Positions 1 to 17,615 of a DNA stretch of 36,778 bases are shown piece by piece. Positions within the stretch are counted from its first letter, which is position 1. Every line of letters begins with the position of its first letter. The position numbers and the translations under genes were made by a program. The stretch is from SAR116 cluster alpha proteobacterium HIMB100 (GTDB lineage Bacteria > Pseudomonadota > Alphaproteobacteria > Puniceispirillales > Puniceispirillaceae): positions 1 to 36,778 of the forward strand of contig AFXB01000005.1 in NCBI GenBank assembly GCA_000238815.2, read 5' to 3'. The notes beneath the pieces were generated by a model that worked only from the letters and a program-made list of their open reading frames with translations, made no database searches and was not told the DNA's origin.

Positions 1-71
1 TTATCACATCATGTGTATCTCATTGATATGTAAGCATTTCATGTGTTTGCATATGGAAGGTGATGCACAAA
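1..71 (+). repeat. 71-bp inverted repeat, left copy
   Basis: This is a perfect reverse complement of 1221-1291. It carries a plus-strand copy of the recombinase leader, including the GGAAGG ribosome-binding site, but no gene follows it. Its right edge touches the recombinase stop codon at 72-74. The repeat may extend left beyond the window. Confidence 0.9.
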
Positions 72-1220
72 TTACTCACATATCCTATCCATCCATCGCT
101 TAAGCACCTCTAAAGGGTAGCCATTGCCATAGGACTGGCCTACTCCAGCAGTTCTCCAGCCACCTATTGCATCAACAATATCAGATGGACACTCAACGGC
201 TCTTAGACGGTCTCTGAGGCTATGCCTGAAGCCATGAATGACATATTGGTTTGAGACATTCTCTTGCAGCCACTTATTCAATGCACCACTCGCAGAGTTT
301 GCATTAGCACCCTTCTCTGAGCAATATTTGGGGAAGGCGAAGATACTATCATCATTAGCGTCTAGAAGCCTCTTACAAGCCCACAGAGACGCTCCTACCA
401 ACGGAATGCAGCGTTCACTACCCTTTGTCTTTAAACCCCTCCACGGGTGAGGAATTAGCTTCACATGAGGAACAACATTATTGAGGATAATGTCTTCTTT
501 AAGTAGGCCAACAGCCTCCCCTAGCCTCATTCCACTATCGCTAATCAGAGCAATCAACCAGCGCAATTCGTCATCAGCGTCTCTGCATAGTCTCTGGGTA
601 AGCATTATATCACTTGGCGCTATTGGCTGACGCTTGGATACGCCTTCTTCGGCTGGGAAGTATGTTTTGGCAAACCCGTTCACACAATCTATGCCATTTT
701 CGGTTATTGCTATATTCACGATTGCCCTGACTGAAGAAAATACCCTCTTAACAGTCTTGATGCCCATACCTCTATCAATAAGCCAATCACGAAAGTTAGC
801 TGCATCTGATGAGGAATATGATGGGATAGGCCTATCACCTAACACCTTAATCACATAACCTACATTGCGATTAGCTGTCCTAATGAACACCTTGTCTTTA
901 CCAGCGCCTTTCAGCTTCAGGTATAAGTCTAACGCTTCATTAAGTGTTGTTACTCCTGCGTTGGAATCAGCACTCACATCCTTCAATACAGATATGGCAG
1001 GTATATCCATATCCTGCAGTCTTAACCCTAACCAATAGTCATCAAGGCGTTGGACAATTGATTTGCTAGCACGATGCGCTGTGGCAAATGATTTGGTCTT
1101 TAGACTGAAAGAAATACGATTAGAGGCATAATATTGCCTCACATCAATAGGAACACGCCTTACGAAATAATACACACCATCTCTTATATGCAGGTGCGGA
1201 GCATGATTTTTGTACATCAT
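72..1220 (-). CDS. Tyrosine recombinase/integrase (module 1)
   Basis: This is a site-specific tyrosine recombinase that presumably acts at the tRNA-Leu core next to its start. The N-terminal part (GVYYFVRRVP) resembles the DUF6538-type arm-binding region common in alphaproteobacterial integrases, and a core-binding domain follows. The catalytic residues are complete, numbered from the ATG at 1220: Arg232 (SGMRLGEA), Lys in LKTKG, His329 and Arg332 (HGFRHS), Trp355 in place of the second His (IGGW), and Tyr364 (SYGNGY). I chose the ATG at 1220 because GGAAGG lies about 10 nt upstream. GTG 1232 and ATG 1229 are in frame but too close to that site. The start therefore sits exactly at the edge of the 71-bp repeat. 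The protein is 382 aa, which is normal for a phage or island integrase, and it is very similar to the broken copy at 8577-9464. Confidence 0.9.
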   Translation of the reverse strand: MMYKNHAPHLHIRDGVYYFVRRVPIDVRQYYASNRISFSLKTKSFATAHRASKSIVQRLDDYWLGLRLQDMDIPAISVLKDVSADSNAGVTTLNEALDLYLKLKGAGKDKVFIRTANRNVGYVIKVLGDRPIPSYSSSDAANFRDWLIDRGMGIKTVKRVFSSVRAIVNIAITENGIDCVNGFAKTYFPAEEGVSKRQPIAPSDIMLTQRLCRDADDELRWLIALISDSGMRLGEAVGLLKEDIILNNVVPHVKLIPHPWRGLKTKGSERCIPLVGASLWACKRLLDANDDSIFAFPKYCSEKGANANSASGALNKWLQENVSNQYVIHGFRHSLRDRLRAVECPSDIVDAIGGWRTAGVGQSYGNGYPLEVLKRWMDRICE

Positions 1221-1291
1221 TTTGTGCATCACCTTCCATATGCAAACACATGAAATGCTTACATATCAATGAGATACACATGATGTGATAA
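1221..1291 (-). repeat. 71-bp inverted repeat, right copy (recombinase leader)
   Basis: This copy mirrors 1-71 without a mismatch. It holds the leader and GGAAGG ribosome-binding site of the recombinase gene and ends at the base before its likely ATG. One base (1292) separates it from the tRNA-derived core. It contains the motifs GATACACAT and TGTGATA, which are plausible recombinase arm sites. Confidence 0.9.
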
Positions 1292-1292
1292 G

Positions 1293-1313
1293 AGAAATGG
1301 TGCGGCTGAGAAG
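1293..1313 (-). other. att-like core 1 (copy of tRNA-Leu 3' end)
   Basis: The 21 bases are identical to the last 16 bases plus CCA region of the tRNA-Leu gene and its immediate flank (12435-12455), in the same orientation. The segment GGTGCGGCTGAGAAG is tRNA sequence. It is the junction between modules 1 and 2. Confidence 0.85.
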
Positions 1314-1594
1314 CGTTTACACCACCGTGTTAGCCTGTAATTCCTAACGATTCTGCCAAGTGGTTGGCGGCTTGGCAACCCAGAATGTATCCCCAATTGT
1401 ATCACCGCAGCTGCCCCTGCGGTGTTGCCGGGAACCTTCCCGCGAACACGCAAGGCTTCCTCAGATATATATCTTGGGGGTGCCTGGGGGCGTGCAAGGG
1501 CCACCCGGGGTGGTGGGGTATCTGCACGCAGATGGAACACAGACTGGTATGTTTTGAGTTATCTGTATGAGTAAGCTAGGTGGCAGGAAAAGTA
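1293..1594 (+). repeat. 302-bp terminal inverted repeat, left copy, with a chain of hairpins
   Basis: This is the reverse complement of 7627-7928 at 301 of 302 positions, with no indels. Inside are at least seven short palindromes: 1329-1333/1344-1348, 1354-1360/1371-1377 (TGCCAAG/CTTGGCA), 1403-1410/1417-1424 (CACCGCAG/CTGCGGTG), 1429-1434/1437-1442 (CGGGAA/TTCCCG), 1463-1474 (AGATATATATCT), 1501-1505/1509-1513 and 1520-1525/1528-1533 (ATCTGC/GCAGAT). Small ORFs here are not conserved-looking and I do not call them. The density of foldbacks suggests an origin, telomere-like end, extended att arm or structured RNA. Confidence 0.93.
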
Positions 1595-1633
1595 TCGAGC
1601 CGCGAAGTGCAACAGGTCATCAAGTAAGCGTTG

Positions 1634-2371
1634 CTAGTCTACCCTTAAAATGTTTTGACGAAAAAACAGTAATAAACTAATTATCGCAAACATATTAAAA
1701 ATTACTGAAGCTATTATAAGCAACTGTCGTCTAAAGTTTAGATAGGCAATTTCGGAATTTTGTCTCTTTAGCTCTAAAAACAACGTTAAATAATCATCAA
1801 AATAAGCAATGTTAATCTGGTCAATTTCATTCAATTTTCTATCGTTAGCATCAACTAAGCTCAGTTTTTCAATCGAGCTTTTTTTGGCAAAGTATTCTTT
1901 TTGAATTTTCATACAATTATCAATTTCGAACAGATAATTAGCGCAACGCAATATTAGTTTGTTTAGTTCAGCATTAATCAATTTTTCAGAATGTCTTAAG
2001 TCCTCAACGTATTCCTCTAGAAGTTTCTGATTTTCATCATCAGTCAGATATGGGGGTCTGCTCTCAAGCATCTTTTTCCCAAAATCAGTGTCTGGGTTCC
2101 AAGCGCGCCTACCTTTCAATATTGAGCGCTCTCGTTCAATTGCAGACATGTTCAAATCGAGCAGAGCGTTATTCAAGCCAAAATAAATATCCTTATGGTT
2201 TTGTATATTTGCACTCCAATAATCTAAGTTTTGAACAAGCTTGTAGTTTTGTCTTTCAACCAAATCCTGAGTATTTGAAATAAGCTTCTCTGTTTGGTAA
2301 GTTGCTTGGTCGGCAACTATGGAGACGAAACCACAAAACGCTGCCAAAATAATTGTGAGAGTTTTATCCAT
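1634..2371 (-). CDS. Membrane protein with two terminal helices and a helical ectodomain (unknown function)
   Basis: I do not recognise a family. The 245-aa product has a short hydrophobic N-terminus (residues about 4-20, possibly a weak anchor or signal), a long charged, mostly helical middle, and a strong membrane segment near the C-terminus (about residues 215-238, QLLIIASVIFNMFAIISLLLFF). This predicts a bitopic protein with an extracytoplasmic helical domain. Its start overlaps the 3' end of the upstream 275-aa gene by 8 bp (2364-2371), so the two are probably translationally coupled and work together. The protein has the same overall plan as its partner. It is the last gene before the left terminal repeat. 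Confidence 0.7.
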   Translation of the reverse strand: MDKTLTIILAAFCGFVSIVADQATYQTEKLISNTQDLVERQNYKLVQNLDYWSANIQNHKDIYFGLNNALLDLNMSAIERERSILKGRRAWNPDTDFGKKMLESRPPYLTDDENQKLLEEYVEDLRHSEKLINAELNKLILRCANYLFEIDNCMKIQKEYFAKKSSIEKLSLVDANDRKLNEIDQINIAYFDDYLTLFLELKRQNSEIAYLNFRRQLLIIASVIFNMFAIISLLLFFRQNILRVD

Positions 2372-3191
2372 TTGGCTTCCGCCTCTCTAACGCAAGTTCG
2401 AAAAGCTGGAAGGTGAGATAAATCACAAGTTGGGCTATAAAACCGATAAGAAAGGTATTTGATGACCACCAATTCAATTTTTTTAAATGTTGTCTTAATT
2501 CCAGAGTTTTCTCTCTTTCCGTTTCCATGATATTTGAGATGTTTTTGTAGGTAAAATTTGCGTATTCATTATACTTATAAAAAATTTCTGAGGTTACATC
2601 AAAAGCGTCATTGTAAATATCCCATACGGAATCTTTGGTATTATTTTGCTCTCCTTCAGCACTATTTCGCTCTCCAATTTTGGTCAAAAAATCGTCAATC
2701 AAAAGTTCTGTCTGTGCCCTGTAACCTCTAAAATATTCAACTTTTTTCAACGTTTCTGTAGCTTGCGTGGAACTGAACAAATCAAGCTTTATCAACATTT
2801 CATTGGCTTGGTCCAACCTCGAAAAAGCAAAAAAACTGTTTCGTCTTTTTGACTTCAGTTCACTTTCCCACCCGGACAACAAAGAGCCTTGATTAAAGTC
2901 CCCATAGTTAAAGTTCTGTGAGTCCAAGTATGTAAGCTTGAACAAAAAGTCTGCTTCTGTATTTAGGCGAACAGTCCTCAGAATAGAGAAGTTGGATTGG
3001 CTATTGTCTAGTTTTTCTCTGAGTTTCTCTATTTTAACCTCAAGAAAAGCGGTCAATAGGCTGAACAAAATTGCGCCGGCTGATAGGAAAATGGCGACAT
3101 CAATGATTTTCTTCTGGGTATTAGGGTTTCTGAAAATCAGACTGAGGTTGCTAAAATTCAATGTGCGAACAAATTTGAAGTTAACTATCAT
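2364..3191 (-). CDS. Membrane protein with two terminal helices and a helical ectodomain (unknown function)
   Basis: No family is recognised. The 275-aa protein has a membrane segment at about residues 30-50 (VAIFLSAGAILFSLLTAFL), a roughly 190-residue helical, partly coiled region rich in charged residues (starting VKIEKLREKLD), and a second membrane segment near residues 240-265 (FLIGFIAQLVIYLTFQLFE). The architecture matches the next gene, which it overlaps by 8 bp, suggesting a two-subunit membrane complex. A receptor-like ectodomain without a recognisable cytoplasmic signalling domain is one reading. The PrsW-like gene lies 65 bp upstream on the same strand. Confidence 0.7.
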   Translation of the reverse strand: MIVNFKFVRTLNFSNLSLIFRNPNTQKKIIDVAIFLSAGAILFSLLTAFLEVKIEKLREKLDNSQSNFSILRTVRLNTEADFLFKLTYLDSQNFNYGDFNQGSLLSGWESELKSKRRNSFFAFSRLDQANEMLIKLDLFSSTQATETLKKVEYFRGYRAQTELLIDDFLTKIGERNSAEGEQNNTKDSVWDIYNDAFDVTSEIFYKYNEYANFTYKNISNIMETEREKTLELRQHLKKLNWWSSNTFLIGFIAQLVIYLTFQLFELALERRKPNG

Positions 3192-3256
3192 CTGAGTGCA
3201 AAAACGAAGCTAGTTGAAGCAGATATTCCAGGTGTAAAACTTTGTTTCAATCTGGT

Positions 3257-3883
3257 CTAATCATGTTGTTCTTTTTTAGTCTTATTATACAAGTACCATG
3301 TGAGACAAATCACAGCTATCAAGAATTGCATGTAGTAATTTTCAAGAAAGTTATAAAAAGCATGGATAAGTGCTGGGACTAAAAATGAGATTATCAAATA
3401 CTTTCTGCGGTATGACAGAAAATATCTGCCAATGAAAAAACCCATTATTATTCCGCAACAAGCGTGAAGCGGAACTGCACTCACAGCTCGTGCAGCCGCT
3501 ACGGTGAATGAGGAGTATTCGCCGTTCCAGACATAGACGTATTCATAATTTTCAAATGTTGCAAAACCGAGTGAGACCAGTGTGCCATAAACTATAGCGT
3601 CCATCGGCTCGTCAAATTCCACCCTATCCCAAAGGAAAAGCCCTATAGCGAGAAACTTTAATGCCTCCTCTACAAAACCAGCAATGAAGGAATAATTTTC
3701 AGGCTCTGAAGTGCTGTCTATCAAAAGGTGATTCAGCTCACCCGAAGGCAGGCAAATTAAATAGCCCAGAACGAAAGCTGCTATCATAGTTCTAGGTGGT
3801 TCTTGAAATCGGTCTGAAGAAATGACGTAAGCTAAAATTGCTAGTGATGGAGATATCGTTAAAAGGAGAGTTTGAATTTCCAT
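3257..3883 (-). CDS. PrsW-family intramembrane metalloprotease-like protein
   Basis: The 208-aa polytopic membrane protein has the hallmarks of the PrsW family (CAAX-protease-like glutamyl superfamily). These are EExxK at residues 72-76 (VEEALKF), FEN at 110-112 (ATFENYEY), a conserved His at 140 within PLHACCG before a membrane helix, and a final His at 174 (ALIHAFYNF). These residues normally bind the metal or act in catalysis inside the membrane. Family members cleave membrane proteins such as anti-sigma factors. No anti-sigma factor is visible here, so the substrate is unknown; the two bitopic proteins downstream are obvious candidates. It lies between the polymerase gene and the coupled membrane-protein pair, all on the minus strand. 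Confidence 0.8.
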   Translation of the reverse strand: MEIQTLLLTISPSLAILAYVISSDRFQEPPRTMIAAFVLGYLICLPSGELNHLLIDSTSEPENYSFIAGFVEEALKFLAIGLFLWDRVEFDEPMDAIVYGTLVSLGFATFENYEYVYVWNGEYSSFTVAAARAVSAVPLHACCGIIMGFFIGRYFLSYRRKYLIISFLVPALIHAFYNFLENYYMQFLIAVICLTWYLYNKTKKEQHD

Positions 3884-3961
3884 TGTAAAACAACACTAAT
3901 ATTGGTTTTTGTTTGTTCCGTCAGGCGTCTGGTTAACTAGCCAATTTTGGTATATTTTGGT

Positions 3962-5386
3962 TTAATTAACCAAACATTTAACGCCAACTTCTTTAGAGAA
4001 GGCTAACTCAATTTGTTTGAGTACAACAGGCTCATCTTCCTTGCGGCAAATGAAACTATCATGAAGAGTTAGAACAGGTATTTGGTGGTGCACACAAGCT
4101 TCTATGACAGACATACAAATATTGCCCTCTTTGTACATAAAGTGGTTGCCACGCTCCTCATAAAACAGTGGCTGCAGGTCAGAGAAACTATTAAAGCAAT
4201 CATCTACAAGGTCAGTTGCCCAGCCCTTGTAAGATACCATGCCTGCAACTTCGACAATCCCTTCTTCACGCTGTTTGTCATACAACGAACTAACGGCTGA
4301 CTGCCTGCTCTTAGCGTTGAACAGCGTGCTTATACATCTTTTAACCAAATCGCGAGGCCAACTGGTAACACCCTCCCTTTGATAAATATCCTGATTTGAC
4401 TGCCGATACCAATCGATGCCTACTTCGGCATAAGCCATAGTGGGGTGACAACTCTTAATGTCCAGCTCAACGGTCGGTTCGCCATTAATCGTTATCTTTG
4501 ACCTTAGGTCTTCATTCAGCTGTTGATACCGCCCACCATACAAACGGCCATGAGACTGCCAGCTGTTATTATTGAACACCCTTCTGGTATGAATCAGGTC
4601 CGGTATCATATCGAGGAAACCGGGAATCATGACTCTCTGATTCATTATAAATCTGTTGTACTGAGCAAGAAGTTGCTGCTGTTTAGCTATTTCTTGGCTA
4701 GGTGTGTATGGGATGAGATGCCGCTGACCTTCTGCATCTTTTTCTGATTTAAGCTGAACTGTCTCTGTCTTTTCATGAAACCTCAAAAGGCCAAAGTGCC
4801 AGCCACATTGCTCGTCTAGGAAATGAGTTAGCTCATCAAACGCAACAATCCGGGGTAGATGGCTGTTATATCCGGCCTCCCTAGCGAAATTGCCGGGAAC
4901 ATGAACAATCAGGTCATGTCTCGCCAGCGCCTTGACCAGTTTCTCAAGCATAGAGAATGTGGTGCCAGATGGATTGTACTGTTCAGGAACGCTTTTCCCA
5001 CGGCGAAGACGGATAGAAATGAGCTGGCGTTTGTTTTGCTTTGCCGCCAGATAAAGATTACTCAGCAAACATACGAGCTGCTTGTCTGCTGGGCGGCTAA
5101 AAGTCTCGTCATGCAGCAGGTTTTTAATCCCCTCAACTGCCCGCTCCACCTCCTGTCCTGTTGCTGTAAGGCCATAATCGAACCCTCTTGCATCTCCCAG
5201 CAACCTAGCGAGGTGGATACGCCTATCATCAAGCAAATAGTCCTCTGCTGTTTTGCTTATGCCTAGCTGAGAATCTATCTGTTGTGATAGTCTAGCTGTT
5301 AGGGCAGCCATCTCTCTAAATTCAGTCGAATAGAGCCATTCCTGTGCTTTAGGACGCAGTTTATCGTACATGACTTCTTGTATCAT
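3962..5386 (-). CDS. Superfamily A (TV-Pol-like) DNA polymerase/primase-polymerase
   Basis: The C-terminal half has a palm-domain signature of family A polymerases and T7-like RNA polymerases. Residues are numbered from the TTG at 5395. Motif A is VELDIKSCHPTM with Asp312; a motif-B-like helix has Arg348, Lys352 and FNA 359-361; motif C is VLTLHDSFI with His445-Asp446. No 3'-5' exonuclease domain or standard PolA fingers are apparent, and the protein is only about 475 aa. This fits the transposon/virus TV-Pol family described from mobile elements and the Sputnik virophage better than Pol I, and that family has been proposed to prime and extend DNA. The N-terminal 250 residues are unrecognised. 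The start is uncertain: ATG 5386 is used, with TTG 5395 and ATG 5371 as alternatives. It is divergent from the plus-strand cargo genes. Confidence 0.7.
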   Translation of the reverse strand: MIQEVMYDKLRPKAQEWLYSTEFREMAALTARLSQQIDSQLGISKTAEDYLLDDRRIHLARLLGDARGFDYGLTATGQEVERAVEGIKNLLHDETFSRPADKQLVCLLSNLYLAAKQNKRQLISIRLRRGKSVPEQYNPSGTTFSMLEKLVKALARHDLIVHVPGNFAREAGYNSHLPRIVAFDELTHFLDEQCGWHFGLLRFHEKTETVQLKSEKDAEGQRHLIPYTPSQEIAKQQQLLAQYNRFIMNQRVMIPGFLDMIPDLIHTRRVFNNNSWQSHGRLYGGRYQQLNEDLRSKITINGEPTVELDIKSCHPTMAYAEVGIDWYRQSNQDIYQREGVTSWPRDLVKRCISTLFNAKSRQSAVSSLYDKQREEGIVEVAGMVSYKGWATDLVDDCFNSFSDLQPLFYEERGNHFMYKEGNICMSVIEACVHHQIPVLTLHDSFICRKEDEPVVLKQIELAFSKEVGVKCLVN

Positions 5387-5470
5387 AAAAGGCAATAAAA
5401 ATCAATAAATACATACATATAACAGATATTCGTCAATCATGGATTATGCTGTATCAGCTGGGATGAGGCG

Positions 5471-5499
5471 GTGTGGCCGTTACTTACTGTGCTACTTTT
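5471..5499 (+). repeat. 29-bp direct repeat, copy 1
   Basis: The sequence starting GTGTGGCCGTTACTTACTG is identical to 7605-7633. This copy lies in the divergent intergenic region between the polymerase gene and the plus-strand cargo genes. The other copy crosses the inner edge of the right terminal repeat. Confidence 0.85.
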
Positions 5500-5613
5500 G
5501 TGATTGGACAGAAGCGCGAACCTTTGGCACCATAAAAGCAGATTAATATGACCCCGTCTCAGATAAGGGATGGGCGAACATACAGCTCAATATTTTGATA
5601 CTTTTGGACTGAG

Positions 5614-5991
5614 ATGAGATTAGCTGCGCTAGGTAAAATGACAGCTTTAGCAATATTTCTGAGTGGTCAAGCGGCTGCCTATGATGCCCTATCTCAAAAA
5701 TGTATCATGCATCGCCACATCATTCTTGAAGATGATGCAATAAAAGAAGGCAAGTTAGACACTTTCGAAATGCGCGAAGAATCTGACGAACTGTATTTAG
5801 GTGGCTGGTATTTTGGTGGGGCATCTTTACCTTTGGATACTGTTGCAAACGACTACGCTAAAGCTAACGATGATGAAGGTAGAACTTTCATTTATTGGGC
5901 CGGCAGATTCCATTTTACGTTCATCTCGCACCGGCACGTAACCAGTATCTCTGGAGACTGCAAGCCAGTGCCGAGAATGAACCGGGGTTAG
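5614..5991 (+). CDS. Small exported protein of unknown function
   Basis: The 125-aa product has a likely Sec signal peptide: a basic N-terminus, a hydrophobic stretch to about residue 20, and an AAA cleavage region before YDALSQKC. The mature part is about 100 residues with Cys30 and one later Cys (SGDCKPV) that could form a disulfide. No family is recognised. An internal ATG at 5638 would also give a signal peptide. It is the first gene of the plus-strand run 5614-7500, followed after 22 bp by another small membrane-anchored protein. Confidence 0.6.
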   Translation: MRLAALGKMTALAIFLSGQAAAYDALSQKCIMHRHIILEDDAIKEGKLDTFEMREESDELYLGGWYFGGASLPLDTVANDYAKANDDEGRTFIYWAGRFHFTFISHRHVTSISGDCKPVPRMNRG

Positions 5992-6013
5992 CAAAGGTAT
6001 TGGTGAGGGTCAG

Positions 6014-6340
6014 ATGAGAGCATTTCAACCGTTTACGCTGGTGATTGGACTGATGGCAGTCTTGCTATTGACCTCATCAACATTCACACCAGAAATCGTC
6101 TATCTCAAGGCATCGAAGGCCCCAATTCGTATAAAGCCAGCACATAATTGGACCCAAGACGTACCCAACTCAGAACATGAAGATAAGTGCATATTCAATG
6201 AGTATAGGTGTCCAGAGAGGTTTTACTTTCAAATATCTCAATTGTTCGATGATTTTGAGGCGGATACATGCTCGCCGCCAATAAACATTCAGAGTCTGAG
6301 TCATGGACAAATACTATGTAAACTGAAAAAACAATCATGA
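6014..6340 (+). CDS. Small membrane-anchored or exported protein of unknown function
   Basis: The 108-aa protein has one N-terminal hydrophobic segment (about residues 7-22, FTLVIGLMAVLLLTSS) and a hydrophilic remainder with four cysteines (CIFNEYRC, DTC and LCK), which suggests a disulfide-containing periplasmic domain. GAGGG lies 7-8 nt before the ATG. The stop overlaps the next ATG by 4 bp (ATGA at 6337-6340), so it is coupled to that gene. No family recognised. Confidence 0.6.
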   Translation: MRAFQPFTLVIGLMAVLLLTSSTFTPEIVYLKASKAPIRIKPAHNWTQDVPNSEHEDKCIFNEYRCPERFYFQISQLFDDFEADTCSPPINIQSLSHGQILCKLKKQS

Positions 6341-6915
6341 ATGACAAGAGAAAAGAAAATATCCCGCAAGGCTTTTTAAATATCCGCGACATCCTCCTTA
6401 GGGAACATGGATGGCATGACAATATTGATGATGGGTACGTGGTCACTACAATAGAAGGAAGTGTTGTCCTCCTATCAAACAGTTGGGTTAACGATATACA
6501 CTTTGGGCGAAAATTAACGACCATCAAAAATGTGTTGAAACGAGGTCGTAAGATTTATTTCAGTCCTGAATTTTTAATTAAATCAGATAAGCCGCTATTT
6601 CAGTTGGAACTAGAAGGTGAAGATTTAGTTAAGAGAGCTTGGAGCCATGAGATGGCCACTTACTGTTGGCCATTAAGTGATTTATACGAAGCTGTTGGAA
6701 CAACGCTTGTCATCGAAAATTACTTTGTCCCGGATAGGGCTATTTATGTACGCGCACATAACGGCCCATTCAAAGGCAAAGAGTATAAATTTCCAGTCTT
6801 TTGTTTGCAATTGCCTGACGCCGTTTTCCTAGAACCTGAGAAGTTTCCAAAACTGAACACAAACCGGGAGAGGCTTCTTCACTTTTTCCGAGAAATAAGA
6901 AGTTTTGTAGAATGA
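6337..6915 (+). CDS. Soluble protein of unknown function
   Basis: The 192-aa product has no signal peptide or membrane segment, and I recognise no domain. It looks like a mixed alpha/beta cytoplasmic protein. Notable stretches are REHGWHDNIDDGYVV near the N-terminus and VYVRAHNGPFKGKEYKFPVF-like beta-rich sequence around residues 145-165. It starts inside the stop codon of the upstream gene and ends 12 bp before the next, so it sits in the middle of a compact four-gene unit with two exported proteins and one polytopic membrane protein. Confidence 0.6.
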   Translation: MNDKRKENIPQGFLNIRDILLREHGWHDNIDDGYVVTTIEGSVVLLSNSWVNDIHFGRKLTTIKNVLKRGRKIYFSPEFLIKSDKPLFQLELEGEDLVKRAWSHEMATYCWPLSDLYEAVGTTLVIENYFVPDRAIYVRAHNGPFKGKEYKFPVFCLQLPDAVFLEPEKFPKLNTNRERLLHFFREIRSFVE

Positions 6916-6927
6916 AAAGCCGAGCAA

Positions 6928-7500
6928 ATGCTATCTTTAATTCGCATAATTGAAAATTTGATGACTGGAAAATACGCTGTTTTTTGGCAGGTTATTGGTG
7001 CGTGCTTAACATTGTTTTTTCTTTGGTGGTTTTACGAGAGTGGCAATCTATCGTCGTTTCTCGATATGATGGTCTCAATAATTAAGTTGTGGCTTTCACT
7101 GTTTGGCGAAGTGCCTGAGATTTTAGCTGAGGGGAACGGTTTCTTTGGTACAGTTTTTTCGGTGGGTTTCGCGGGCTTTTATGTCTTGCTCCTAATAGCC
7201 GTTCCTATCTGGCTATCGTTTTGGGCATTTTTATTTATCGTGAGGCCCATAGCGACGATGTCTCTAATTTGGGAGAATGTTCATGAACCTATGTTATGGC
7301 TATTAAAGATAATTGCCTTCTTCCTGCTGATAGGTGGTGTAGGTGCTTTAGCAAACTTATTGGGCTTTACTGTGGAAACAGGCATCTGGTTAAGTGTTGT
7401 TATCTTTGGATTAGCAATATTAAATCAACTCAGCAGCGGATGGTTGATTGAAAAGGTTGCGCATTTCATTGTTAAAGTTTCAGCCAAGATACGCCGTTAA
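6928..7500 (+). CDS. Polytopic membrane protein of unknown function
   Basis: The 190-aa protein is very hydrophobic, with about four or five membrane segments: near residues 18-36 (FWQVIGACLTLFFLWWFY), 72-105 (a long stretch that may hold two), 122-145 and 152-172. The C-terminus is basic (KVSAKIRR), probably cytoplasmic. No family recognised. It is the last gene of the plus-strand run, and its stop lies about 125 bp from the right terminal repeat. No terminator hairpin with a T-tract is visible after it. Confidence 0.6.
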   Translation: MLSLIRIIENLMTGKYAVFWQVIGACLTLFFLWWFYESGNLSSFLDMMVSIIKLWLSLFGEVPEILAEGNGFFGTVFSVGFAGFYVLLLIAVPIWLSFWAFLFIVRPIATMSLIWENVHEPMLWLLKIIAFFLLIGGVGALANLLGFTVETGIWLSVVIFGLAILNQLSSGWLIEKVAHFIVKVSAKIRR

Positions 7501-7604
7501 TCACCTTCTCAATTTTATACCCAATCCCCCCAGCAACACTGCTAGCCCCCCCTGAGCAGTTCTGCTTCGCATACCTATCAAAACATACCCCCTTACCAAA
7601 GGCC

Positions 7605-7633
7605 GTGTGGCCGTTACTTACTGTGCTACTTTT
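7605..7633 (+). repeat. 29-bp direct repeat, copy 2
   Basis: This is identical to 5471-5499 and in the same orientation. Its last seven bases (7627-7633) overlap the inner end of the right 302-bp terminal repeat. Confidence 0.85.
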
Positions 7634-7928
7634 CCTGCCACCTAGCTTACTCATACAGATAACTCAAAACATACCAGTCTGTGTTCCATCTGCGTGCAGA
7701 TACCCCACCACCCCGGGTGGCCCTTGCACGCCCCTAGGCACCCCCAAGATATATATCTGAGGAAGCCTTGCGTGTTCGCGGGAAGGTTCCCGGCAACACC
7801 GCAGGGGCAGCTGCGGTGATACAATTGGGGATACATTCTGGGTTGCCAAGCCGCCAACCACTTGGCAGAATCGTTAGGAATTACAGGCTAACACGGTGGT
7901 GTAAACGCTTCTCAGCCGCACCATTTCT
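7627..7928 (-). repeat. 302-bp terminal inverted repeat, right copy
   Basis: This mirrors 1293-1594 with one difference (7735). All the hairpins of the left copy are present at mirrored positions. It ends in the tRNA-Leu core (7908-7928), beyond which lies the leader-like end of module 3. Confidence 0.93.
7908..7928 (+). other. att-like core 2, inverted copy of tRNA-Leu 3' end
   Basis: The 21 bases match 12435-12455 and 1293-1313 but lie in the opposite orientation. This core is shared by the right end of module 2 and the left end of module 3. Confidence 0.85.
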
Positions 7929-7989
7929 TCCCGTAAACCCCGCGGAATCCCTCGTGTTTAGCCTGATGGTTGGACAGGGGTGATACATT
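7908..7989 (+). repeat. Left inverted end of module 3 (orphan recombinase leader)
   Basis: This is an inverted copy of 12374-12455, 78 of 82 bases identical. The four differences cluster at 7966-7973, between GCCTG and CAGGGG. It includes the core, the leader and the AGGGG ribosome-binding site of the recombinase gene 11007-12383. The match stops at the first base of that gene's probable TTG start. No recombinase follows here. Confidence 0.85.
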
Positions 7990-8576: not shown

Positions 8577-9464
8577 CTATTCACTAAATGCATTGGGTAA
8601 CTTCGCCATGTAAGATATCAGTATATTTATTTGATATCCTTCTCCGTATTCCTGCCCAACACCAGCATTTGTCCAACCACCTATCTGGTCAATCATATCC
8701 GCAGGGCAATGTTCAGCTCTGAGCCGGTCTCTAATGCTGTGCCTAAACGAGTGAACCACGCATCCATCTGGCACAAACTCCTGAAGCCACTTGTTTAATG
8801 CACCACTGGCAGAATTAGCATTAGCAGTCTTCTTATTGCAGTATCTGGGAAAGGCAAAGATACTATCATTATTTGCCTCTATAAGCCTCTTACAAGCCCA
8901 CAGAGAAGCACCTACAAGAGGGATGTCTCTTTGACTGCCTCTTGTCTTTAAACGTCTCCATGGATGAGGAATGAGCCTTACATGAGACACATCATGTTCA
9001 AGGATAATGTCCTCTTTAAGCAGCCCTACAGCCTCTCCAAGTCTCATTCCTGTGTCTGATATAAGGGCTATCAGCCAGCGTATATCGTCATCCATTTCCA
9101 TGCACTTGGCTTGGATGGCTCTGATGTCTTCAATGGGAATGGGTTTACGTTTGGATACATTTTCTTCTTCAGGGAAGAACGTCTTGGAAAAGGCATTGGA
9201 ACAGTCATAATCATGTTCTGTAATGGCTTTGTTCACAATGGCTCGGACAGACGCAAAGACACGCTTCACTGTCCTTACAGTCATGCCTTGCTTTAAACAC
9301 CAGTCACGGAACTGTGCAGCCTGTGAGGATGAATAAGAGCCTATTGGTCTGTCACCTAAGAGAGTGATGACATAGTCAGTGTTACGAGTAGCTGTTCTGA
9401 TAAACACCTTGTCTTTACCACCAGCTTTTAGCCTTAAGTATAACTCACGTGCTTCATCTCTCGT
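8577..9464 (-). pseudogene. 5'-truncated tyrosine recombinase
   Basis: The frame runs from just after an in-frame TAG (9465-9467) and encodes DEARELYLRLKAGG onward, aligning with the module 1 recombinase from about its residue 98. The arm-binding region and about 100 N-terminal residues are missing. The remaining part keeps the core-binding and catalytic domains, including TGMRLGEA, LKTRGSQR, HSFRHS, IGGW and QEYGEGY. The only possible start in the conserved part is GTG 9407, with no good ribosome-binding site. A shortened product lacking arm binding could still be made, but loss of function is more likely. Positions 8672-8797 are identical to 11312-11437 in the intact recombinase of the same module. 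Confidence 0.75.
8672..8797 (-). repeat. 126-bp direct repeat inside recombinase gene, copy 1
   Basis: This is perfectly identical to 11312-11437, although the flanking parts of the two genes are clearly diverged. It encodes the segment from KWLQEFVPDG through the HSFRHS box to IGGW. The pattern indicates recent gene conversion or recombination between the two recombinase genes. Confidence 0.9.
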
Positions 9465-9545
9465 CTAGCATCTTGCGCAAAAAGGATTTTAAGCTACAAC
9501 ACAAATCCTAAAATGTTTTACGAGGTATAATCCATCGTTTATGGG

Positions 9546-10838
9546 CTAAATACCTGTGTCAGAAATAACGTAATACTTCCAGCCATTAAATTCTAACAAA
9601 CCCAAATTCTTTATATCATTTTCGGAAAAAAATCGATTTGGTGAGGAGCCGCCTTTGGGCTGATAAAATGGCTGAAAGAGTTGCTGAGGTAATTTTTTCA
9701 CAACTTCGCTTAAATGTTTTTTCGGAAAATGAGACAGGTCTTTTCTGCTTGTAGCGTTTCGCAAAGAACTAATTTTTTTATCCACATATCCTCCAACAAG
9801 ATGAATAGATTTTCCAGTAAACATGAAGAATAAAGTAATAGCTTCTTCACTTTTGAATGAAGATAAATAAACTTTAATGTTTGAGAAAAACTCTTCTTCA
9901 TTTGGTGTTGTTAACTCAATTTTACAAACATCATAGATTGACAAATCTGATAGCCATTTGCATGTCAGAAACTTTCCTATCTGTCTTAAATTAGCATTTA
10001 CCCAAAATAGTCTAAAACTAGTTGTATCAAAACATAGATACCGTTTGCCTCGCTCAAGAGTAATAGCGGAACTTTTTGAAGATTCTTTGTTTTTTCTTCG
10101 AAATTGTGTGAAGCTGTTCCACTGGTTGCTAATTTGCAATGTGCAATAATCGAACTCACCGGAATATGTTTGATATTCCTTATAGGTTACTCGTGCATAT
10201 TTTGCTAAGAACTCACTTTCTAGATTGTTTTTAGTTTCTGCTATTTCAACTCTAAGTTTGCTTTTGGATAGTGAGGAAGCGTCCAGCAGTTTTGATGTTT
10301 TCTGGTCTAGCTTCTTCATTTTCTTAGATAGGTCTAAATAATCAACTTCCAGTTTTTGATATTCTTTAATTAGACTTTCAAGATGCTGAACAGTGATAAA
10401 ATATGCATCTTCCAGAACCTGGTTTATTTTATTCTGTAATTTCCTGGCCTCTTTATTTGCAATCTTTAGTGAAACTGAGGCCTCGATATTAAGTTGGCCT
10501 TTGTTGGTAAAATTCTGACTGCCAAGAATGAGATTTTTTCCTGAAATCAACACCTTGGCATGAAGGTTTGGTAGATGAAACACCTTGATGCCTGACTTTA
10601 ACAAGTTTAAAAGTAATTCAAAGTCTAAGGATTTGCTGAGATAAGCTTCTGCTGTTACTGAGGTTATAAAAAATTTGTTTTCTGACTTGTTCGTTTCAAA
10701 AACTTTTTCAATAACAGAACCTGTCGCATACGGAGAAAAAATGAACAATTCGTCTTCTGGAGAAGTATTGCTTGCAACAGTGACCCATTCATCGACAACA
10801 TCTGAAAAAACAAATAAGTGTTGTTCGTTAACCGGCAT
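9546..10838 (-). CDS. PLD-like (HKD) domain protein, possible nuclease
   Basis: The 430-aa protein has an N-terminal phospholipase-D-like domain. One HKD motif, LHAKVLISGKNLILGSQNFT, places His93, Lys95, Ser107, Asn109 and Thr111 as expected, but the acidic residue four positions after Lys is replaced by Gly100. Glu119 follows in the usual acidic position. Single-HKD proteins normally dimerise, and many are nucleases (BfiI/NgoFVII-type restriction or repair). Residues about 145-215 are a predicted coiled coil, and the C-terminal 200 residues are unrecognised. There is no signal peptide, so it is cytoplasmic. It lies between two recombinase genes as typical cargo. A role in DNA defence is a guess. 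Confidence 0.65.
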   Translation of the reverse strand: MPVNEQHLFVFSDVVDEWVTVASNTSPEDELFIFSPYATGSVIEKVFETNKSENKFFITSVTAEAYLSKSLDFELLLNLLKSGIKVFHLPNLHAKVLISGKNLILGSQNFTNKGQLNIEASVSLKIANKEARKLQNKINQVLEDAYFITVQHLESLIKEYQKLEVDYLDLSKKMKKLDQKTSKLLDASSLSKSKLRVEIAETKNNLESEFLAKYARVTYKEYQTYSGEFDYCTLQISNQWNSFTQFRRKNKESSKSSAITLERGKRYLCFDTTSFRLFWVNANLRQIGKFLTCKWLSDLSIYDVCKIELTTPNEEEFFSNIKVYLSSFKSEEAITLFFMFTGKSIHLVGGYVDKKISSLRNATSRKDLSHFPKKHLSEVVKKLPQQLFQPFYQPKGGSSPNRFFSENDIKNLGLLEFNGWKYYVISDTGI

Positions 10839-11006: not shown

Positions 11007-12383
11007 TCAAGGATATCTGAGGGCTATTTTATTTAGATGATTAGCCTTCAACTCCAAGTTGTACCCACTCCCATATAACATCGATGTAGACTGATTAGAG
11101 TGTCCCAGAATTGCTTCAATAATCTCTAGAGGGCATTCTACTTGTCTTAATCTGTCAGACATTGAGTGTCTCAGACAGTGTGTGGTTTTATAAAAGCCTC
11201 TTCCCTTATTATAGGTCTCTTCGCTGTAATCAAGGGTGAGGGATAAGAACACTTCCAGCATATTTCTAAGCTTGTGCCCATCTCCATAACCTTCTCCAAC
11301 TGACTTCTTTCTCCAACCACCTATCTGGTCAATCATATCCGCAGGGCAATGTTCAGCTCTGAGCCGGTCTCTAATGCTGTGCCTAAACGAGTGAACCACG
11401 CATCCATCTGGCACAAACTCCTGAAGCCACTTGTTTAGGGTGTTGCTGGCATAGTCAGCCTTACAGCCCTCAGCAGAGCAATATCGAGGAAAGGCAAACT
11501 CGTTTGTGGCATTTGCAACAACGCGATTTGCGGCCCACAGAGAGGTACCTACGAGCGGTATGTTTCTCTGACTACCCTTAGTCTTTAATCGCCGCCAGCG
11601 ATGCTCTGAGAGTCTTACAAAGGGTATCTCAGCATCTAAATGAACGTCAGAGATAGCCAGACCAGCTGCTTCTGCTAACCTCATGCCTGTATCAGACAAC
11701 AAGGCCACCAACCAGCGTATATCATCGTCTATTTCAAAACATACCTGCTGCATCATTCGTATGTTTTCTATGGGTATGGGTTTGCGAGTAACTGATGCAG
11801 AGCCATTACCGTAATTCATATTGGCGAACGGGTTGGCTGTTACCAATCCGTGTTCGCGGGCTGAATAGTTCCAGATAGCTCGTATGCACTCAAAGTTGCG
11901 TTTCACTGTTGCAGTGGTGACGCCCCTTCCCAGCAACCTATCTCGGAAAGCCAGTGCGTCAGCCCGGGTATATGCAGATATGAGTTTATCTCCTGCAATG
12001 GCGATAACCTCACCTGCGACCCGCTGGGTGAATACCATGAACCTCTTGTCATCCAGCCTTCCCTTCATCGTGCAGTAATCAGTGAGGGCAGCTGACAAGA
12101 CAGGGACAGTATGTTTTGGCTTGGATAAAAACAATGTTGCTCGGACATCATCTGGAATGGCAAACAGCTTGTCTGACCATTCCTTTTCCAACGCTGCTAC
12201 CAGCTGTGATGAAATCCTGATTGCTTGAAGCCTGTCACGCGTTCGCATGGATTTACGGATGAATTCCTTGCCGTAATGCCCAACCAGAGCTTTAGGAACG
12301 CGTTTCTGCAGGTAAAACATACCTCGCTTACGGATGAGGTAAGGTGCCGTAACCTTAGTCAATTGTATCCCCAAATGTATCAC
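11007..12383 (-). CDS. Tyrosine recombinase/integrase with duplicated catalytic C-terminus (module 3)
   Basis: The 458-aa recombinase starts 52 bp from the tRNA-Leu core, as expected for the integrase of a tRNA-targeted element. The N-terminus (YLIRKRGMFYLQKRVPKAL) is DUF6538-like. The catalytic residues are Arg235 (TGMRLAEA), the LKTKG lysine, then His331-Arg334 (HSFRHS), Trp357 and Tyr366. About 70 residues later the box-II segment recurs: His402-Arg405 (THCLRHS), LGHS and Tyr437 (SMLYGSGY). Usual relatives are about 380 aa, so the protein carries two copies of the C-terminal catalytic portion. A 126-bp stretch (11312-11437) is identical to the truncated recombinase. The start is GTG 12383 as listed; TTG 12374, with AGGGG 7 nt upstream, is better spaced. 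Confidence 0.88.
   Translation of the reverse strand: MIHLGIQLTKVTAPYLIRKRGMFYLQKRVPKALVGHYGKEFIRKSMRTRDRLQAIRISSQLVAALEKEWSDKLFAIPDDVRATLFLSKPKHTVPVLSAALTDYCTMKGRLDDKRFMVFTQRVAGEVIAIAGDKLISAYTRADALAFRDRLLGRGVTTATVKRNFECIRAIWNYSAREHGLVTANPFANMNYGNGSASVTRKPIPIENIRMMQQVCFEIDDDIRWLVALLSDTGMRLAEAAGLAISDVHLDAEIPFVRLSEHRWRRLKTKGSQRNIPLVGTSLWAANRVVANATNEFAFPRYCSAEGCKADYASNTLNKWLQEFVPDGCVVHSFRHSIRDRLRAEHCPADMIDQIGGWRKKSVGEGYGDGHKLRNMLEVFLSLTLDYSEETYNKGRGFYKTTHCLRHSMSDRLRQVECPLEIIEAILGHSNQSTSMLYGSGYNLELKANHLNKIALRYP
11312..11437 (-). repeat. 126-bp direct repeat inside recombinase gene, copy 2
   Basis: This is identical to 8672-8797. It lies in the first of the two C-terminal catalytic copies of the module 3 recombinase and may mark the segment acquired by recombination. 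Confidence 0.9.
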
Positions 12384-12455
12384 CCCTGTTAAACAAACAG
12401 GCTAAACACGAGGGATTCCGCGGGGTTTACGGGAAGAAATGGTGCGGCTGAGAAG
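12374..12455 (-). repeat. Right inverted end of module 3 (recombinase leader plus tRNA core)
   Basis: This is the inverted counterpart of 7908-7989 (78/82 identical). It contains the recombinase leader with AGGGG and the 21-bp core at 12435-12455, which is part of the tRNA-Leu gene. Confidence 0.85.
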
Positions 12456-12528
12456 ACTCGAACTTCCACGGGGTATTAGCCCCACAGCGACCTCAACGCT
12501 GCGCGTCTACCAATTCCGCCACAGCCGC
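12443..12528 (-). tRNA. tRNA-Leu (anticodon GAG)
   Basis: The acceptor stem pairs GCGGCTG (12522-12528) with CAGCCGC (12444-12450). The discriminator is A, and CCA is encoded at 12440-12442. The anticodon stem CAGCG/CGCTG encloses the loop TTGAGGT, giving GAG at 12492-12494, which reads CUC/CUU leucine codons. A long variable arm and the T-arm sequence TTCGAGT confirm a class II tRNA. The 3' end serves as the integration site, and the inserted module leaves an intact gene. Confidence 0.95.
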
Positions 12529-12552
12529 ATAAACCCATTTGGTCTGGCCGCT

Positions 12553-12581
12553 CTTATCCCATGAAATGCAGCCCAAGGCAA
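12553..12581 (-). promoter_or_regulatory. Candidate promoter for tRNA-Leu
   Basis: On the minus strand, TTGCCT (12576-12581) and GATAAG (12553-12558) are separated by 17 bases and lie 24 bases before the tRNA 5' end. The fit to sigma-70 consensus is moderate. Confidence 0.45.
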
Positions 12582-12629
12582 GACAAGAAAACAAGACAGG
12601 GTACGCGGGTCTGTGCTAGGCTGGCGGCC

Positions 12630-13337
12630 ATGAGACAGGTGCAAAATCATTCCCCCTTCTGGCAGCTGATCCCGCCCCCCTCGCCTTATGAAAGCGCGGT
12701 TCAGCAGATGGAAGCCCATGCCCGGGCCGTAATCGCGGGCACAGCACAAGAGGCTGTGTTCATGACCAGCCATGAAGCGGTCTATACCGCGGGCACATCA
12801 GCCAAGCGTGAAGAATTGCTCGCCCCCTCAGGCATGCCAGTGGTACAGACAGGGCGCGGCGGGCAATGGACCTGGCACGGGCCGGGCCAGCTGGTCCTCT
12901 GGCCGGTGCTGGATTTAAACCAGCGCCAGCGGGATGTACGGGCCTATATTTTTGCGCTGGAAGGCTGGATGATTGATGTGCTGGGCTGTTTTGGCGTGAC
13001 AGGGGAACGGCGGGACGGGCTGCCCGGTATCTGGGTCAGGCGCGGGGATGACGGCCGGCCTGACCGGCTGGATAAAATTGTGGCGGTGGGCGTGCGCATA
13101 TCAAAATGGGTGACGATGCATGGGGTCGCCCTGAACCATGAGCCGGATTTAACTCACTATGACGGGATTATCCCCTGCGGCGTGGACAGCACAGCAACAG
13201 ATGGGGGCGGCGTGACCAGCCTGGCTGACCTCGGCCTGATGATCTCACCAGAAGAGCTGGAAATGGCAGTCAAAGATTGTTTTCCGAACTGGTTCGGCAC
13301 CGGGGCGGCGATGGGGCGGGACATCACATCTGCGTGA
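12630..13337 (+). CDS. lipB: Octanoyltransferase LipB (lipoate biosynthesis)
   Basis: It transfers octanoyl groups from octanoyl-ACP to the lipoyl domains of 2-oxoacid dehydrogenases and the glycine cleavage H protein, the first step of de novo lipoylation in the cytoplasm. The family signatures are complete: TGRGGQWTWHGPGQLVLWP at about residues 74-92, Lys149 (DKIVAVGVR) and the catalytic Cys183 (IIPCGV), with THYDGI just before it. I start at ATG 12630 (235 aa). The frame is open back to 12561, but that extension has no family similarity and runs into the tRNA promoter region. It is convergent with the minus-strand cluster that ends at 13553. Confidence 0.93.
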   Translation: MRQVQNHSPFWQLIPPPSPYESAVQQMEAHARAVIAGTAQEAVFMTSHEAVYTAGTSAKREELLAPSGMPVVQTGRGGQWTWHGPGQLVLWPVLDLNQRQRDVRAYIFALEGWMIDVLGCFGVTGERRDGLPGIWVRRGDDGRPDRLDKIVAVGVRISKWVTMHGVALNHEPDLTHYDGIIPCGVDSTATDGGGVTSLADLGLMISPEELEMAVKDCFPNWFGTGAAMGRDITSA

Positions 13338-16046: not shown

Positions 16047-16082
16047 TGTCTTTTACTCTTCATCAAACATCAGGACAGGGCG

Positions 16083-17615
16083 TTACAGAGGCAGATTGTC
16101 ATGCTTGCGCGGCGGATTGGATAAATCCTTATCTTTCAGCATGGTCAGCGCACGGGCAATCCGGCGACGGCTGTTTCGTGGCATGATGATATCATCTAAA
16201 TAGCCGCGGCTGGCGGCCACAAACGGGTTAGCAAATTTCTGACGATATTCGGCTGTGGCCTCAGCCAGCTTTTCGGGATCCTTGGCGGCATCACGGAAAA
16301 TGATACGGGCGGCCCCTTCCGGACCCATCACCGCAATTTCAGCTGTTGGCCAGGCATAATTTACATCACCACGCAAATGTTTGGACGCCATCACATCATA
16401 AGCCCCGCCATAGGCTTTACGGGTAATCAGCGTGATTTTTGGCACCGTCGCTTCAGCATAGGCAAACAGCAATTTGGCCCCATGATTGATAATTCCGCCT
16501 TCTTCCTGGGCCTTGCCTGGCATAAAGCCCGGCACGTCAACCAGCGTAACAAGCGGAATATTAAACGCATCACAGAACCGCACAAACCGGGCTGCCTTGC
16601 GCGAGGCGTTGATATCAAGGCACCCTGCCAGCACCAAAGGCTGGTTTGCAACAATGCCTACAGACTGGCCATCTATGCGGCCAAAACAACAAATGATATT
16701 GCCAGCAAAATTTTCATGAATTTCGAAAATGTCACCGTCATCCACGATCTCGCGGACCACCTTTTTCATATCATATGGCATATTCGGATTATCCGGGATG
16801 ATGCCGTCCAGAACCGCAGAAGGACGATCCACCGGATCAGTTGTCTGCAAAACAGGGGCTTCTTCGCGGTTTGATAAGGGCAGGAAGCTCATCAGACGAC
16901 GAGTCTGCATCAACATATCCAGATCATTGGCGAACGCGCCATGAGCCACACCAGAGGTTTTGGTATGCTGGCTTGCCCCGCCTAATTCTTCGGCGGTTAA
17001 ATCTTCATGCGTTACTGTCTTGACCACATCAGGGCCAGTAACGAACATGTAAGATGAGCCTTCCACCATGAAAATAAAATCTGTAATCGCTGGCGAATAT
17101 ACCGCGCCGCCCGCACAAGGCCCCATTACAAGCGAAATTTGGGGAACCACGCCAGAGGCCAGAACATTACGCTGAAACACCTCTGCATAGCCGCCAAGAG
17201 ACGCCACACCTTCTTGGATCCGCGCGCCGCCTGAATCATTCAGACCGACCACAGGCACGCCTACTTTCAGTGCCTGATCCATAATTTTGCAGATTTTCGC
17301 AGCATGCGTTTCTGACAAGGAGCCACCCAGAACCGTAAAATCCTGAGAATAGACAAAGACAGGCCGTCCTGAAATGCGACCAAAACCCGTAACGACGCCA
17401 TCACCAGGAACTTTGCTGTCAGCCATACCAAAATCAGTACAGCGATGTTCAACAAACATATCCCATTCTTCAAATGAGCCCTCATCCAGAAGAACATGAA
17501 GCCGTTCTCTTGCGGTCAGCTTATGTTTTTCGTGTTGACGGTCGACACGTGCCGCTCCGCCACCAGCGCGTGCCTGTTCACGTCTTGCTTCAAGCTCATC
17601 CAAAATCGGCTTCAT
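16083..17615 (-). CDS. pccB: Propionyl-CoA carboxylase beta subunit (carboxyltransferase)
   Basis: This subunit transfers the carboxyl group from biotin on PccA to propionyl-CoA. The 510-aa protein shows both crotonase-like halves of acyl-CoA carboxylases: [28 protein letters not shown] and [12 protein letters not shown] (oxyanion region) in the first, and DVPGFMPG and [17 protein letters not shown] in the second. I start at ATG 17615, where GAGGGGGA lies just upstream and the sequence begins [11 protein letters not shown] as in the family. The frame extends 12 codons further without similarity. It sits between the ATP12 gene and pccA, so the cluster makes both carboxylase subunits. Confidence 0.94.

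Follow-up and report, generated by a model that had tools for sequence, protein, structure and literature searches.

A putative polymerase-bearing integrative element with two inverted attP-like sites beside a tRNA-Leu gene of a SAR116 alphaproteobacterium

Layout of the element beside tRNA-Leu(gag)

The stretch of DNA analysed here (the window) is one whole contig of 36,778 bases, AFXB01000005.1, from the 2.46 Mb, 10-contig genome of SAR116 cluster alpha proteobacterium HIMB100; judged by its integrase and core sequences it carries a predicted tRNA-gene integrative element, which encodes a polymerase and contains a pair of 302-bp inverted repeats. The integration target (attB), apparently regenerated by the element, is a tRNA-Leu(gag) gene on the minus strand (12440..12528; ARAGORN, Rfam tRNA). 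The right-hand two thirds of the window hold ten large open reading frames (ORFs) of ordinary chromosome, including biotin carboxylase, MgsA, rpoA, secY and ribosomal proteins, so the element is chromosomal and lies beside tRNA-Leu(gag) at 12440-12528. A phage or gene transfer agent cluster was considered for this right part and ruled out by the same ribosomal-protein genes. The segment from the tRNA gene to the end of the window (12440-36778), in which tRNA-Leu(gag) adjoins the carboxylase genes, MgsA, rpoA, secY and the ribosomal-protein genes, shares 10.2 kb of matches (73-76%) with a locus (L107) of G020, a genome whose assembly is a single contig.

A preliminary description of this DNA had reported 302-bp inverted repeats at 1293-1594 and 7627-7928, identical at 301 of 302 positions without indels, and self-comparison reproduces both the coordinates and the single mismatch (99.669% identity). 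We call these repeats the X arms, the right one placed on the plus strand and the left one, its inverted copy, on the minus strand. Of their outermost 22 bp, 21 constitute the 3' end of tRNA-Leu plus five bases and recur at the tRNA gene itself (12435-12455); all 22 recur on another contig of the same genome. This core is present in the window three times, in the order direct, inverted, direct: copy 1 at the tRNA on the minus strand (12435..12455), copy 2 at 7908 on the plus strand (annotated as 7907..7928) and copy 3 at 1298 on the minus strand, within the left X arm (annotated as 1293-1314). Copy 1 lies between the tRNA body and a sequence we call D2, as a putative attL; copy 2 between the right X arm and D2', as a candidate attachment site that we call attP2; and copy 3 between the left X arm and a different sequence, D1. 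The unit reads tRNA-core-D2-integrase half-D2'-inverted core-X-polymerase half-X'-core, where X is the 302-bp repeat, core included.

D2 (12364..12434, minus strand), the putative P' arm of a site attP1, is in part (12374-12434) repeated in inverted orientation as D2' (7929..7989, plus strand), the match of 7908-7989 to 12374-12455 covering 82 nt including the core at 95.1% identity. D2 contains the motif GATACA twice, at 12376-12381 and 12364-12369, with a 12-bp period and overlapping the start codon of the integrase gene int3; D2' retains only the first of these arm-type repeats (7982-7987). The same motif stands at 7818-7823 and 7830-7835 in the right X arm and, placed by mirror image of the right arm, at 1398-1403 and 1386-1391 in the left. 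On this anatomy we read the 302-bp repeats, with a probability of about 0.8, as the P arms (X) of two inverted X-core-D sites of a tyrosine-recombinase integrative element.

Enclosed by D2 and D2' are int3 (11007..12383, minus strand), a 458-residue tyrosine integrase; a cargo gene (9546..10838, minus strand) with a weak PLD-like match that scores below curated cut-offs where these are given; and a broken second integrase (8577..9467, minus strand) with an in-frame TAG, a fossil inside the integrase half. X and X' enclose the polymerase gene. To the left, a 71-bp perfect inverted repeat, 1-71/1221-1291, stops one base short of the left X arm; its copies, D1 (1221..1291, minus strand) and D1' (1..71, plus strand), enclose int1 (72..1232, minus strand; 386 residues, DUF6538/Phage_integrase), and the contig ends where a core and the next X would be expected. 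D1 carries the arm motif GATGCACA rather than GATACA. Because an X with GATACA here meets a D with GATGCACA, int1 appears to be part of a second, tandem element. A D nearly identical to D1, with the same motif, lies beside tRNA-Leu in a genome from another family of the order (locus L284, genome G040), a likeness that suggests recent spread between families.

An intact tyrosine recombinase adjoins the tRNA gene. Int1 has a Pfam Phage_integrase match; int3 aligns to it over residues 7-375 without stops and weakly matches XerC/XerD models. The R, K, HxxR and Y motifs of tyrosine recombinases were found by eye in both proteins. At its C-terminus int3 has another HxxR...Y-like catalytic stretch, which looks like a duplicated gene end.

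The polymerase gene (3962..5395, minus strand) encodes 477 residues. A structure model built from 49 sequences (pLDDT 84.6) bears out the earlier claim that the element has a polymerase of its own: the model predicts a palm fold of the family A/T7 RNA polymerase type over approximately residues 206-477 (Z of 14.8 against apicoplast PolA, 14.1 against mitochondrial RNA polymerase and 13.6 against T7 RNA polymerase), its likeness to PolA and to T7-like RNA polymerases being about equal, within 1.2 Z. Invariant in the 49 sequences are E310, D312, K352, H445 and D446, residues of palm motifs A, B and C of family A DNA polymerase. The N-terminal part is winged-helix-like at a level short of significance: alone, it gave a best Foldseek E of 0.023 with many MarR-like rows, none significant, and a profile of the polymerase matched PDB sequences only through a weak GntR winged-helix hit (E 0.28). 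The window protein is like family A DNA polymerases and T7-like RNA polymerases in the palm; it differs from them in this winged-helix-like N-terminal part and in its family matches, none being found in Pfam (E up to 0.1) or NCBIfam and one in PHROG 4756, a group with no function assigned. A relative encoded in the same genome, P0003, is distantly matched in three alphaproteobacterial plasmids and in ten phage records of vibrio, pseudoalteromonas and shewanella, whose entries call the proteins hypothetical. Scans of viral contigs returned only four distant polymerase relatives (L206-L209), and a first scan of genome contigs with a single protein query gave no match. A 34-bp direct repeat (97%) has one copy upstream of the polymerase start (5466-5499) and the other where the right X arm has its inner edge (7600-7633); it may be a binding site or have been left behind by movement of the arm.

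Recurrence of the layout at tRNA genes

Polymerase relatives occur in 55 of the 136 genomes of the order, and the genomes that share the polymerase are mostly SAR116. A scripted survey of the loci examined covered 50 tRNA sites with an integrase within 2.2 kb downstream; its tally omits L125, L129, L133 and L134 and includes L103, which is not among the positive sites. A site was counted as double-attP when an inverted core was followed by the same D, with at least 35 nt matched. The inverted X-core-D layout was found in this way at 20 of the 50 integrase-occupied sites, at tRNAs for Leu, Thr, Arg, Gly and Phe and mostly in SAR116, the window's order. The preliminary description had named a repeat that is single-copy and unrelated to element ends in homologues as grounds for giving up its view of the repeats; what relatives have is X twice, inverted, at element ends. 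The window's own X has no match outside its genome among the loci examined, and a plasmid search with the repeat returned none.

Among the 30 sites where no inverted X-core-D was seen, nine had at most 2.2 kb of downstream sequence, so some of them could not show the layout. Five (L124, L127, L131, L191, L192) have the ordinary single-attP layout, in which the tRNA end recurs as a direct repeat, and carry the same polymerase family. The other 16 show neither layout, and four of these have a second whole tRNA of the same kind (L024, through L050; L053; L054; L098). Mapped on an integrase tree, double-attP integrases (19 rows) require 2 label changes against 7.8 when shuffled (28 labelled integrases, with near-copies inflating the contrast), so the layout is clustered in lineages rather than scattered. 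A third core, direct and with the same X, is present in 4 of the 20 units (the window, L009, L051, L158) and was not found in the other 16 within the stretch examined; these outer direct cores are identical to the tRNA 3' end in the window, L009 and L158 and differ from it at two of 16 positions in L051. In self-comparisons of the window, L009, L051, L057, L125, L158 and G020, X arms are 189-1208 bp long and 88.8-99.7% identical.

Many of the relatives are single-cell genomes and several contigs end in an inverted repeat, as would be expected had assembly or amplification chimeras made the inverted copies. Against this, the same site-specific layout, with its junctions at the tRNA core, recurs at five tRNA types and in many genomes, two of them one-contig assemblies (G037 at tRNA-Thr; G020 at tRNA-Leu, where six cores, one with a mismatch, are spread over 20 kb); it is therefore not only an amplification artefact of single-cell genomes, and we give a chimeric origin the smallest chance of the explanations weighed here. 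Contigs that begin or end in such an inverted repeat are those of L008, L056, L057, L061 and the window. Since contigs end in these repeats, fragmented assemblies hide the layout, and the layout could in turn explain why SAR116 contigs stop in an inverted repeat at a tRNA gene. In L010 a Caspase-like gene (EACC1-associated type, below the cut-off) adjoins a polymerase and an integrase at tRNA-Gly, and a second similar ORF lies downstream (11739-13304 and 14895-17072).

The repeats as probable arms of unequal attachment sites

The preliminary description had drawn attention to palindromes in the repeat, and the three it named are in place: a stem CACCGCAG/CTGCGGTG at 1403-1424, AGATATATATCT at 1463-1474 and ATCTGC/GCAGAT at 1520-1533. 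Six non-overlapping stems of at least 5 bp occur in the window X arm against a shuffled mean of 2.06, a number reached by 1.5% of 200 shuffles. Its reading of these as serial foldbacks like those of linear-replicon telomeres or a hairpin origin fared less well, and so did the suggestion of a structured RNA. Folding of the 302 nt against shuffled sequence, which it had proposed as a check, was distinctive only for RNA of the minus strand (z -2.42; 0 of 100 shuffles equally good), whereas DNA of the plus strand (z -1.17; 13 of 100), RNA of the plus strand (z -0.80; 18 of 100) and X without its core (RNA, z -1.71 and -1.09; 60 shuffles) stayed near the shuffled level. Seven other X arms are not enriched in palindromes (0-4 per arm, with shuffled means of 1.4-3.8), and of all eight arms only one strand of L051 (z -3.18) folds convincingly better than shuffled sequence. 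Hairpins are not the shared feature of X arms. The tRNA cores and putative integrase P' arms that adjoin the X arms, and the occurrence of the layout inside single-contig chromosomes and here beside a ribosomal-protein operon, also speak against a telomere or hairpin origin, and for all the palindromes of the window arm and the two folding exceptions we rejected it as very improbable. A third option of the preliminary description, an extended att arm, is the one that agrees with what follows, X being the probable P arm of an attP.

The arm-type sites of phage lambda are direct repeats. In 18 of the 20 units X has a pair of direct repeats, 92-119 nt before the core, whose period is exactly 12 bp (periods 9-16 allowed), the exceptions being L281, with only 75 nt of X, and L055. 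A pair of the same kind lies 53-105 nt after the core in D: an exact scan over periods 9-16 gave period 12 in 11 of 20 units, another period in four and a repeat under 6 nt in five, and a looser scan with the period fixed at 12, run without a shuffled control, matched 7-9 of 9 letters in 19 of 20. The exact scans were controlled by other periods and by the D of other units, not by shuffles. The motif varies by element and recurs in X and D alike: GATACA in the window, GATGTACA in L009, GTAGACA in L158, GTCGTAG in L271. A script that allowed one mismatch in up to nine letters found the X unit in its own D in 12 of 20 units, and on average 7.3 7-mers of X recur in its own D, against 2.2 in the D of other units; no foreign D reaches the own-D count in eight units, and one does in five. 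On these sequence criteria X-core-D has the anatomy of a lambda-type attP, a core with flanking integrase sites.

These arm motifs bear on whether two independent units are joined here, a D-bounded integrase element and an X-bounded transposon with terminal inverted repeats that inserts at tRNA-like cores. Each half does have its own inverted repeats, and one unit in G020 does without a polymerase. X arm motifs are nevertheless on average nearer to the D of their own unit than to that of others, an inverted core followed by the same D stands in all 20 counted units (this being the counting rule), and no transposase was found among the polymerase-half ORFs of the window and L009, part of which were scanned. 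Because X and D arm motifs are alike within a unit, an independent transposon is disfavoured, and we consider it improbable.

Two further features of X were noted. At the outer ends of X, 17 of 20 units have a GGTGC-like inverted partner of the tRNA's GCACC shortly before the core, by a loose motif that includes GGTGT and GGCGC and was used without a shuffled control. In 15 of 20 units (e.g. L057, L102, L119, L158, L277) a TTGAC[A/G] box directed across the core to the integrase gene is found 82-85 nt ahead of the core, and integration would separate the box from the gene. A promoter in X was considered as the cause of integrase polarity and rejected: no matching -10 was established, and the box is absent from the window's X.

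The two sites of a unit are unequal. On either side of its core attP1, the site next to the integrase start, carries a pair of arm-type repeats; attP2 has such a pair in X and, on the D' side, one repeat in the window and one or none in relatives. With L201 not scorable, at most 6 of 9 letters of the second D' repeat are left in 19 of the 20 units; the first is whole in 12 of the 19 and keeps 7 of 9 letters in two (L009, L051). Of the 50 sites, 49 (including 19 of the 20 double-attP units) have the integrase directed away from the tRNA; the sole exception, in which it points at the tRNA, is L201, at tRNA-Phe in a gammaproteobacterial metagenome-assembled genome. The missing second D' repeat may explain this 49:1 bias; on the simplest account integration would be confined to attP1, where both P' repeats are present. 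Fourteen double-attP units, all different elements, have a polymerase no more than 16 kb from the tRNA; the polymerase half has the same orientation in 7 of them and the opposite orientation in 7, and from this we infer that it may flip between X arms, by the integrase (Int) or by RecA. In L126 against L130 the polymerase block is inverted relative to its flanks.

Host homologous recombination alone might keep X identical and flip the polymerase half; the second attP would then be a by-product in which Int plays no part. At 189-1208 bp and 88.8-99.7% identity X arms are long enough for RecA, and the polymerase is found 7:7, while integrase halves, whose D arms are some 60-95 bp, are 49:1. Against this reading, the inverted D ends just past the first P' repeat in 12 of 19 scorable units, and the core and the X repeats are kept. 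We regard recombination by the host alone as unlikely but quite possible.

The far ends of related insertions appear to carry target sequence. In three relatives with tRNA-Leu far ends (L310 in G042, L312 in G068 and L313 in G055), compared with integrase-free L242, L245 and L246, the sequence after X-core aligns from its first or second base with the sequence that follows the tRNA core in the integrase-free relatives: L312 with L245 over 1005 columns (85.7%) and with L242 over 484 columns (90.3%), L313 with L245 over 659 columns (87.0%) and L310 with L245 over 88 columns (83.0%). These matches fit an insertion between direct cores. The far flank itself resembles an old, decayed D. The G020 island's far end matched only itself among 50 loci with tRNA-Leu flanks, a pattern for the f4 tRNA-Leu flank was found in 1 of 14 genomes, in an uninformative remnant, and the window's own array runs off the contig end.

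The structure of the element is well supported: the architecture, the arm repeats, the tRNA cores, the polymerase fold and the target sequence beyond the far core of related insertions all bear on it. A number of observations weigh on the other side. In G020 no polymerase is recognisable in one complete double-attP unit (550264-555383); the GGTGC-like partner is absent from 3 of 20 X ends and the 12-bp pair from the X of L055; for seven units, 5-13 of the 19 foreign D do at least as well as the own D in 7-mers shared with X; and the first D' repeat is lost along with the second in five units (L055, L168, L271, L277, L281). As to the far ends, those of L312 and L313 (G068 and G055) are not on the contig that holds the tRNA; L312 has an X unlike the mid-element X of L102 in the same genome and a core with one mismatch, and that X may belong to another, tandem element; the L310 insertion (G042) is a 1.2-kb remnant; and the far flank of L051, the one complete unit with non-element sequence beyond its third core, matched no empty site. 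As to flipping, the search for polymerases within 16 kb of the tRNA means that a few may belong to a neighbouring tandem element, the L126/L130 pair is diverged (72-90% identity), no near-identical element was seen in both orientations among the locus-comparison matches listed, and integrase halves are flipped at only 1 of 50 sites, so that the free flipping of both halves known from the 2-micron plasmid is unseen once the element is integrated. The circle and the flip are moreover deduced from sequence, and amplification from analogy.

Proposed cycle and comparison with known systems

If the X-core-D sites are attachment sites, recombination between the outer direct cores would yield an excised circle in which the integrase half and the polymerase half lie between two inverted attPs. 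Int would then recombine attP1 with the tRNA 3' end, leaving tRNA-core-D at the tRNA, an inverted attP2 in mid-element and X'-core at the far end; by this route X would become the terminal repeat of the polymerase half and D that of the integrase half. Recombination of the inverted X-core sites, by Int or RecA, would flip the polymerase half, and a flip while the circle replicates could set off double rolling-circle amplification, perhaps with the encoded polymerase, by analogy with the yeast 2-micron plasmid. Two inverted recombinase sites inside long inverted repeats, our mark of a 2-micron-like element, were present at 20 of the 50 sites. We put forward tentatively, and think rather unlikely, a widespread 2-micron-like family in which an Int flip would drive such amplification, served by an encoded, possibly self-initiating polymerase of family A/T7 type, and in which its shortened P' arm would bar attP2 from integration yet leave it able to flip.

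The window element resembles other tRNA-gene elements of tyrosine recombinases in having an integrase beside the tRNA, a core that is the tRNA 3' end and attP repeats that flank the core; it differs in its two inverted attPs, the second with a shortened P' arm. The lambda attP likewise consists of a core with flanking integrase sites of core and arm type, according to the passages of PMC8371274 drawn on here. Tycheposons, as presented in the portion of PMC10872708 consulted, are marine bacterial elements that integrate at tRNA genes and have a tyrosine recombinase; no inverted attP pair is described in that portion, and the term 'inverted repeat' occurs 0 times in the main text. For the pTN3-type integrase of Thermococcus, the part of PMC5495485 consulted describes integration and excision and also inversion of DNA between att sites, but these inversions are genomic, and two inverted attPs per element go unmentioned in that part. 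Among the matches listed in the open-access PubMed Central literature, none was found to describe an integrative element that carries a pair of inverted attPs. A natural attP pair that differs in P' arm repeats should lend itself to the question of which arm sites act in integration and which in inversion.

The nearest parallel in layout is the yeast 2-micron plasmid, whose 599-bp repeats contain FRT, whose two isomers occur in equal amount and in which a flip during replication leads to a double rolling circle, as set out in the sections of PMC3147054 used here. The window element would share with this FLP/FRT system the arrangement of two halves between inverted recombinase sites in long repeats and a tyrosine recombinase of its own, the circle being a prediction in the present case, and such a layout makes 2-micron-like copy-number amplification in bacteria a testable question. 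It differs from the 2-micron plasmid in that it integrates in tRNA genes, has a bacterial host, carries arm repeats at its sites and encodes its own polymerase, the likeness in isomers and amplification being one of analogy.

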